Shown piece after piece: positions 62,680-64,000 of a stretch of 64,000 nucleotides of DNA. Each line of letters starts with the position of its first letter. Position 1 is the first letter of the stretch. The notes under the pieces are model-generated. The model saw only the letters and a list, made by a program, of their open reading frames with translations. It had not been told where the DNA came from and searched no databases. The DNA lies in NCBI RefSeq assembly GCF_000018865.1, contig NC_010175.1, forward strand, positions 3,162,001 to 3,226,000. Direction: 5' to 3'. The translations under genes and the position numbers were made by a program. Origin of the DNA: Chloroflexus aurantiacus J-10-fl. Lineage in GTDB: Bacteria > Chloroflexota > Chloroflexia > Chloroflexales > Chloroflexaceae.

Positions 62680-62775
62680 CAACGACTAATTGTTAACCAT
62701 TCATACGGGTAAAGTGGTGCATGCTCGCCGGTATCAGTTGGCCGGCAGAGTGTATCAGGAGCAAAGAGGTCTGGC

Positions 62776-63179: not shown

Positions 63180-63590
63180 ATGCCCGCCAAGGGAAAAACG
63201 ACTACCACGACACGCCAGCGCGGTAAGCGCCGTGAGCGAAAGAATGTGCCGCGGGGTCAGGCGCATATTCAGAGCACGTTCAACAATACAATCGTTACAA
63301 TTACCGATCCGCAAGGCGCGGTCGTATGTTGGGCCAGTGCCGGTCAGAGTGGATTTAAGGGTTCGCGGAAGAGCACACCTTATGCCGCTCAGGTGGCTGC
63401 GGAGAATGCGGCACGCAAAGCAATGGAAAATGGTATGCGCTCGGTTGAGGTCTTTGTGAAAGGCCCTGGCGCCGGACGCGAAGCCGCTATCCGTTCGTTG
63501 CAGGCTGCCGGTTTGCAGATTACTGCAATTACCGACGTGACACCGATTCCACATAACGGCTGCCGGCCACCGAAGCGGCGACGGGTCTGA
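63180..63590 (+). CDS. rpsK: 30S ribosomal protein S11
   Basis: 136 residues. [39 protein letters not shown] and [10 protein letters not shown] are signatures; the N-terminal 20 residues are basic and Thr-rich. Platform protein. AAGGAG precedes the ATG. Followed by a 193-base structured spacer. Confidence 0.97.
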
Positions 63591-63620
63591 TTGGACGTTT
63601 TCGCTGTTGTTATGCTGCAC

Positions 63621-63747
63621 TGTGAGACGACCGCACCTGGAACCGGAGGGCTTAGTTCCCGGACGCCCACTGCGGTAGTGTCTGCCGCCGGCAGCACTGG
63701 CGCCCATCTCACAGGCTGGAACAGAGATGCGTAGCTTATAACTACGC
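63621..63747 (+). ncRNA. candidate structured leader of rpsD
   Basis: Closing stem TGTGAGA (63621-63627) with TCTCACA (63707-63713) encloses arm CCGCA/TGCGG (63631-63635 with 63671-63675), capped by GGAAC/GTTCC, and arm AGTG-T-CTGCC-GCC-GGCAGCACT. A separate GCGTAG/CTACGC hairpin follows (63729-63747), then AAAGGAT and the rpsD ATG. The branched form resembles ribosomal-protein leaders; S4 is a known autoregulator in other bacteria. Inferred by eye only. Confidence 0.45.
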
Positions 63748-63783
63748 CAGTGAAGGATTAGTGAACAAAGGATACATAAGACT

Positions 63784-64000
63784 ATGGCGCGATATATAGG
63801 ACCAGTCGGCAAGGTAAGCCGACGACTCGGCATCGGAATTACCGAAAAAGGTCTGCGCATTCTGAATAAGCGGTCGGATCCGCCGGGACAGCACGGTGCT
63901 GCGGCCCGTCGCCGGCAGTTGTCCGATTATGGCATGCAGTTGCGCGAAAAACAGAAGGCAAAATTTCTATACGGCGTCCTTGAGCGCCAGTTCCGCCGCC
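63784..64000 (+). CDS. rpsD: 30S ribosomal protein S4, N-terminal part
   Basis: The first 72 codons are present; the gene runs off the right edge. [40 protein letters not shown] and [20 protein letters not shown] are clear S4. The N-terminus has no Cys, so it is the zinc-free form. Primary 16S binder, and in many bacteria a repressor of the alpha operon. Confidence 0.96.

Follow-up and report, generated by a model that had tools for sequence, protein, structure and literature searches.

A conserved structured RNA in the rpsK-rpsD spacer of a Chloroflexaceae clade: a probable S4 leader with a distinct fold

Leader RNAs of ribosomal protein genes are well suited for studying how unrelated RNAs come to be bound by the same protein, and the S4 leader of the gammaproteobacterial alpha operon is one of the families in Rfam. 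Further S4 leaders have been described in Bacteroidia, Clostridia, Flavobacteria and Fusobacteriales (PMC7247131, Table 1). According to the sections of that paper drawn on here, the leaders of Bacteroidia and Flavobacteria (Eckert and Weinberg 2020) are described as hairpins and have rpsD, rpoA and rplQ as their regulated set, no rRNA mimicry is reported for these two groups or for the gammaproteobacterial leader, and the leaders of Firmicutes and Fusobacteriales carry a conserved GUAA imitating 16S rRNA. The word 'chloroflexi' is absent from that paper, and none of the open-licence papers found in literature searches describes an rpsD leader in Chloroflexi in its title or abstract opening. 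An RNA named 'Chloroflexi-1' (RF01698) is listed in C. aggregans in the part of PMC2864571 consulted.

Here, we describe a leader RNA of about 105 nt between rpsK and rpsD of Chloroflexus aurantiacus J-10-fl and its relatives, which, from its sequence, is probably an S4 leader with its own fold, distinct from the families in Rfam 15. At gathering scores, Rfam 15 gave no match, to RF01698 or to any other family, in the window (the whole 64,000-nucleotide stretch of DNA that was analysed) or in the 27 loci scanned, and at E<=5 the region 63400-64000 returned only a minus-strand match to another family (E 4.5). The first-pass annotation had raised the possibility of an undescribed S4-responsive leader, and the word undescribed agrees both with the Rfam result and with the S4 leaders given in the sections of PMC7247131 used here, where this one does not figure.

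With the gammaproteobacterial leader, the element shares its operon (S13-S11-S4-alpha-L17), the lack of 16S rRNA mimicry (PMC7247131, in the sections used) and, if the pseudoknot proposed below is right, a leader tied to a cistron's start region (PMC10931766, in the part consulted). In E. coli the site is upstream of rpsM, whereas the Chloroflexaceae element lies between rpsK and rpsD and has its own covarying stems, a GGNNCCG/CGCCC loop and no Rfam match. The Bacteroidia and Flavobacteria leaders resemble it in the genes concerned, as an rpsD-rpoA-rplQ operon follows the leader here too, and in the lack of mimicry; in contrast to those hairpins, the present fold is branched and has a two-part arm, a separation based on the published description, as far as consulted, and on the Rfam scan. 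The Firmicutes and Fusobacteriales leaders share the presumed ligand, S4, but a conserved GUAA like theirs, looked for in our alignment of 25 Chloroflexaceae leaders, was not found.

The leader RNA and its conserved fold

The window comes from a genome of 5,258,541 bases in a single contig, in which the spacer between rpsK (ending at 63590) and rpsD (starting at 63784) measures 193 nt. The features of the locus are listed below in window coordinates.

63180-63590, plus strand: rpsK (ribosomal protein S11), the upstream gene, an open reading frame; S11 protein found in 60 of 61 genomes
63613-63717, plus strand: leader RNA core, match of covariance model R1, 90.3 bits (positions 1934-2038 of locus L001)
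63620-63629, plus strand: closing stem P1, 5' strand; changes on both sides in 8 of 10 pairs
63705-63714, plus strand: closing stem P1, 3' strand, from alignment covariation
63630-63636, plus strand: stem P2, 5' strand; changes on both sides in 6 of 7 pairs
63670-63676, plus strand: stem P2, 3' strand, from alignment covariation
63639-63645, plus strand: 5' side of the internal loop, GGNNCCG, its G, G, C, C and G invariant in 25 of 25 leaders of alignment A1
63664-63668, plus strand: 3' side of the internal loop, CGCCC (copy 1), invariant in 25 of 25 leaders of A1
63648-63660, plus strand: apical hairpin P2b (63648-63650 with 63658-63660), with a loop length that differs strongly among genomes
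63677-63698, plus strand: hairpin P3, an optional arm, from sequence
63700-63704, plus strand: junction strand GCGCC (copy 2), abutting the 3' strand of P1; may pair with the rpsD start region
63729-63747, plus strand: hairpin P4, GCGTAG/CTACGC, 5' of the ribosome-binding site
63767-63773, plus strand: probable Shine-Dalgarno sequence AAAGGAT, judged from the sequence
63784-64000, plus strand: rpsD (ribosomal protein S4), running beyond the window, with rpoA and rplQ downstream
63786-63790, plus strand: GGCGC, made of start-codon base 3, all of codon 2 and base 1 of codon 3; complementary to the junction strand at 63700-63704

A closed multi-branch structure had been read by eye from the 193 bases at 63591-63783, and a branched structure is indeed found there. 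The closing stem recognised at that stage, TGTGAGA/TCTCACA, is present (63621-63627 with 63707-63713) and reaches its full length at 63620-63629/63705-63714 if a C·A mismatch (63628/63706) is allowed; both inner arms are present as well (63630-63676 and 63677-63698). The extra hairpin noted before the ribosome-binding site exists in this genome as P4 but is not constant among carriers of the element, a hairpin of this type being absent from the short tails of L032, L034, L037 and L024. Folding energy of the whole spacer was dropped as evidence: its z score was -0.66, with 51 of 200 shuffles equal or better, so that folding of the single sequence is insufficient for a claim of structure. The core (63619-63714) reached a z score of -2.44, with none of 200 shuffles as good. 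Scores of the eight carrier cores folded ranged from -1.17 to -3.47, and the lowest-energy folds of two of the eight (L032 and L019) deviate from the consensus arms.

The main evidence for the structure is comparative. Alignment A1 holds the leaders of 25 carrier genomes, picked by eye and with a pattern, and its fold comprises P1 (10 pairs), P2 (7 pairs), the GGNNCCG/CGCCC internal loop, P2b, the optional P3 and the junction sequence GCGCCC, with 23 invariant columns. The compensatory changes that the first-pass annotation had proposed to look for in relatives are present: across the 25 genomes, both sides change with pairing kept in 17 of 26 pairs (74 cells), 90.3% of the 650 pair cells are paired, and 0 of 500 shuffles attained any of five covariation measures. 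These shuffles ignore relatedness, and the measures that are more robust by the tool's own account (the counts of changing pairs and of pair types) also beat all of them. When the pairing partner was slid to other registers, only 34-48% of cells were paired. The weak columns of A1 are 16-169 (unpaired in 12 of 25), 37-116 (11 of 25) and 36-117 (9 of 25), and seven of the 26 pairs never vary; the four G-C pairs that RNAalifold predicts between GGNNCCG and CGCCC likewise show no variation. Run without a given structure, RNAalifold recovers most pairs of A1, and 16 of its 24 pairs change on both sides. The covariation result was unchanged after four further genomes had been added, with the alignment fitted to the model. 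Additionally, G·U cells are more frequent than A·C cells (34 vs 23, or 33 vs 14 without column pair 16-169), which favours the plus strand as the RNA strand; the fold is thus most likely read from the coding strand.

Outside the paired core, the position of P3 is taken by an arm-sized segment in 15 of the 25 carriers and by a short linker in the other 10, GCGCCC occupies the junction in all 29 carriers, its last C opening the 3' strand of P1, and the tail from P1 to the AUG measures 28 to 76 nt in 24 of the 25 (L022 left out). On this comparative sequence evidence, which we regard as decisive, the leader is a conserved structured RNA. Its placement upstream of rpsD is consistent, as the copies of the 25 carriers and all four held-out copies lie in the rpsK-rpsD spacer, and we consider it almost certain that the element is a structured cis-regulatory RNA. 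An element for RNase processing or mRNA stability that parts the expression of rpsK from that of rpsD, with no protein ligand, would accommodate the long stem P1 inside the operon, the variable outer parts and the further sequence inserted in some spacers (L024 and L030); a pure processing site, however, would have no need of the invariant internal loop and junction strand, with their 23 invariant columns, and we judge this reading improbable next to that of a regulatory leader.

Within the conserved arm, A1 columns 36, 116 and 118 correspond to window positions 63646, 63661 and 63663. In the genus Chloroflexus, GGA stands opposite GGA here, possibly forming tandem G·A pairs, and the majority of the other carriers show C-G and A-U pairs together with a bulged G, so that the GGA/GGA of Chloroflexus represents a concerted change.

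Distribution and descent of the element

With S11 as the query against 61 genomes of the order, we obtained a match in 60 and took all 60 loci; S4 follows S11 in every one of them, across spacers of 18 to 413 nt. The remaining genome, G009, gave no S11 match and lies outside the spacer survey, and a search of its genome with R1 gave no match. The pattern step skipped 27 spacers shorter than 130 nt, and eight of the other 33 were left out as lacking the pattern (L045 and L048-L053 of the sister families, and L060). R1 run on all 60 loci produced strong matches in the same 25 only, and a weak match in L042 (E 0.1) was discarded, as it lies outside the rpsK-rpsD spacer of that locus. At E<=0.1, the core is the sole R1 match in the window genome.

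Whole-genome searches with R1 placed the element in 29 of 41 Chloroflexaceae genomes and 8 of 18 genera, with one copy in each carrier; the other 12 genomes of the family are without it. Four of the carriers (G061-G064) were outside the training set of R1, though of genera represented in it, and scored 60.9-70.7 bits, every match lying in the rpsK-rpsD spacer. Of 400 phylum genomes searched, R1 matched 20, all of them Chloroflexaceae, and none outside this family under strict filters that weak relatives could escape. In a tree of joined S11 and S4 sequences from the 60 genomes, all 25 carriers fall into one group of 26 (support 100/97), in which L060, from a 71%-complete genome, is the lone non-carrier. 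The element is also seen in Oscillochloris sp. ZM17-4 (L094) and Ca. Viridilinea halotolerans (L096). As the carriers form one clade, the sequences indicate a single origin, or a single retention, of the element within Chloroflexaceae.

This distribution is narrower than the first-pass annotation had assumed. The idea of a general Chloroflexi version does not hold, since the element is confined to one clade of Chloroflexaceae, and neither does its expected presence in relatives of the genus Roseiflexus: the rpsK-rpsD spacer of Roseiflexaceae measures 18-21 nt in 9 of 9 genomes, and a different, 16S-like element occupies this place in some other Chloroflexota. An alignment of Chloroflexus with Roseiflexus, as then proposed, would therefore fail.

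Copy number and spread bear on two further readings of the element. The invariant nucleotides predicted to be unpaired within a multi-branch fold would suit a metabolite riboswitch or other ligand-sensing RNA, yet the element matches no Rfam family, and each carrier genome has a single copy, always in front of a ribosomal protein gene, which makes this reading very unlikely. A functionless mobile or repeat-derived hairpin could be suspected from the long inserts in some spacers, one of which (L024) is an inverted repeat, but is hardly credible given the single copy per genome, the compensatory changes and the retention across the whole clade. A regulatory leader for the ribosomal protein operon remains our preferred reading.

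The spacers of L022 (338 nt), L030 (413 nt) and L024 (226 nt) contain extra sequence, which in L024 is a long inverted repeat; in all three it lies upstream of the leader or in variable loops and leaves the core undisturbed. Chloroflexaceae outside the carrier clade (L017, L020, L021, L023, L035, L036, L038, L039, L040 and L042) have spacers of 36-127 nt with neither this element nor the 16S-like one, and those of L040 and L042 share, by eye, a possible hairpin of their own type.

Candidate ligand and the helix-16-like leaders of other Chloroflexota

Mimicry of 16S rRNA would be an independent indication of S4 as the ligand, and none was found in the Chloroflexaceae leader. A look-alike of helix 17, GACGGUACC, was promising by eye and was rejected after local alignment tested against dinucleotide shuffles. 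Among the 25 leaders, local alignment to 16S reached p<0.05 only in L030, at 16S 214-229, outside the S4 site. The best match was the helix-17 stretch in three leaders (L027-L029, which are near-identical; p about 0.3), helix 16 in L031 (p 0.33) and 443-458 in L006 (p 0.55), and R1 compared with the 16S gene gave no match above 10.6 bits (E 0.31).

The two sister families in the order present a different picture. When their whole spacers were aligned locally to 16S, the best match overlapped helix 16 (16S 376-414) in 13 of 15 leaders, a count to be read with six of the 13 being near-identical and four of the 15 singly reaching p<0.05. We take helix 16 of 16S rRNA to be part of the S4 binding site in the five-way junction. 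PMC10931766 (in the part consulted) describes how uS4 binds the 16S 5' domain at its five-way junction. Four more helix-16 look-alikes before rpsD (L106, L116, L117 and L131, one of them from Anaerolineae) were found among the 23 of 80 loci whose upstream sequence was inspected, and the pattern applied to all 80 recovered one. In total, a helix-16-like leader (GAUGA...GUAAAC) stands directly 5' of rpsD in L045-L046, L048-L059, L106, L116, L117 and L131.

Model R2 was built from A2, an alignment of 13 helix-16-like leaders in which one of the six near-identical L048-L053 sequences was used and L047, which is without GUAAAC, was left out. It describes an element of about 48 positions with two helices and GUAAA. 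In A2, the number of covarying cells and the covariation score exceed the shuffles, but the count of pairs changing on both sides (198 of 500 shuffles) and the further pair types (348 of 500) do not. In 69 kb, the three best R2 matches fell on helix 16, one in each of the three 16S gene copies that the window genome has (E 0.0025, the next match having E 0.53), partly by construction, as the leaders were chosen partly for likeness to helix 16; the local-alignment result in 13 of 15 leaders is less biased. Among the 400 phylum genomes, R2 had 11 matches, of which 10 lie between rpsK and rpsD and one, in G152, was rejected as that genome's own 16S gene, leaving 10 leaders in 400 genomes. None of the 11 R2-positive genomes belongs to the family of the carriers, and those helix-16-like loci that were scanned gave no match in Rfam 15. 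The two leaders thus share the position directly before rpsD and the bacterial order, but one is a two-helix look-alike of 16S helix 16 with GUAAA, and the other held no R2 match in the four carriers tested (L001, L008, L013 and L016). The helix-16-like leader is perhaps as interesting as the one in Chloroflexaceae.

By analogy, the helix-16-like leaders lend independent, though indirect, support from within the phylum to S4 control of rpsD at the rpsK-rpsD position, and it is mainly because of these look-alikes at the same position that S4 is named as the ligand of the Chloroflexaceae element. With the analogy taken into account, we consider S4 the most likely ligand, against which stand the lack of rRNA mimicry and the 12 of 41 family genomes that manage without the element. 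A ribosomal-protein leader bound by S11, S13, L17 or alpha instead would draw on the genes around it, with rpoA and rplQ downstream and rpsK upstream, and on the same lack of a 16S mimic. The gene directly behind the element, though, is rpsD in the 29 carriers, the helix-16 look-alikes occupy the same position in the sister families, and in other phyla S4 is known to regulate this operon or rpsD (PMC10931766 and PMC7247131, in the parts used); ligands other than S4 accordingly appear unlikely, if slightly less so than the processing element considered above.

The rpsD start region and a proposed mechanism

The junction strand GCGCC (63700-63704) is complementary to GGCGC within AUGGCGC at the rpsD start, and both 5-mers are invariant in all 29 carriers. 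The parts follow one another as the 5' strand of P1, the arms, GCGCC, the 3' strand of P1 with no base between, the tail and the start region, which is the order of an H-type pseudoknot. The bases concerned are all invariant in the 29 carriers and hence without covariation. Codon 2 of rpsD is GCG in 29 of 29 carriers vs 2 of 35 non-carriers, a comparison in which the carriers are one clade and represent few independent events; the two exceptions are L040 and L042, with GCG and without the element, and L060, inside the carrier clade and likewise without it, has GCC. Among 64 fourfold sites of rpsD, the third base of codon 2 is the only invariant one, with 0 parsimony changes vs a median of 8 on a simple distance tree.

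As proof of the pseudoknot in its own right, this invariance is weakened by a control gene, rpsM, which also starts with Met-Ala-Arg and, among the genomes in which the gene was located, has GCA as codon 2 in 24 of 24 carriers and in 9 of 10 others. The next-fewest changes among the fourfold sites of rpsD fall on codons 3 and 8, and together with the frozen codon 2 of rpsM this means that a general constraint on start regions could explain the invariance. Specific to rpsD is that the identity GCG coincides with the element and that L060, without the element, has GCC. Three crudely called open reading frames of the window begin ATG-GCN, too few to judge codon 2 usage. Overall, we give the pairing of GCGCC with the start region as a pseudoknot, as suggested by complementarity and conservation, somewhat less than an even chance.

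Regarding the level of control, a consensus scan of 63400-64000 found no terminator-like site on the plus strand, which makes translation a likelier level than transcription termination. A minus-strand terminator-like site (63747-63729) was set aside as being at chance level (1 found, 0.7 expected). We consider it likely that the element is a cis-acting mRNA leader acting on translation, that it controls rpsD and probably rpoA-rplQ as well, and that S4 is the most likely ligand. S4 in excess of free 16S rRNA would bind the invariant internal loop or junction, and bound S4 would repress initiation of rpsD translation. Less certainly, GCGCC (63700-63704) and GGCGC (63786-63790) may form an H-type pseudoknot stacked on P1 that would keep the start codon from productive use, in functional analogy with the S4 pseudoknot of the E. 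coli alpha operon.

Within one order, the same site thus presents three states, namely a 16S look-alike, nothing, and a new fold that is not a mimic; the tree helps to order these states, and loss and re-invention of S4 control thereby become testable. A more far-reaching scenario, which we regard as doubtful, is that of a new fold class of S4 leader replacing rRNA mimicry. An ancestral Chloroflexota copy of helix 16 would have been lost in the line of Roseiflexaceae and Chloroflexaceae, and one Chloroflexaceae clade would then have gained a non-mimicking RNA whose pseudoknot closes over the start codon of rpsD and draws codon 2 (GCG) into the structure, thereby converging on the entrapment known from the E. 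coli alpha operon.

Elsewhere in the same cluster, the spacer between rpmJ and rpsM (62680-62775) is also long, at about 96 nt, and contains a possible small hairpin by eye.
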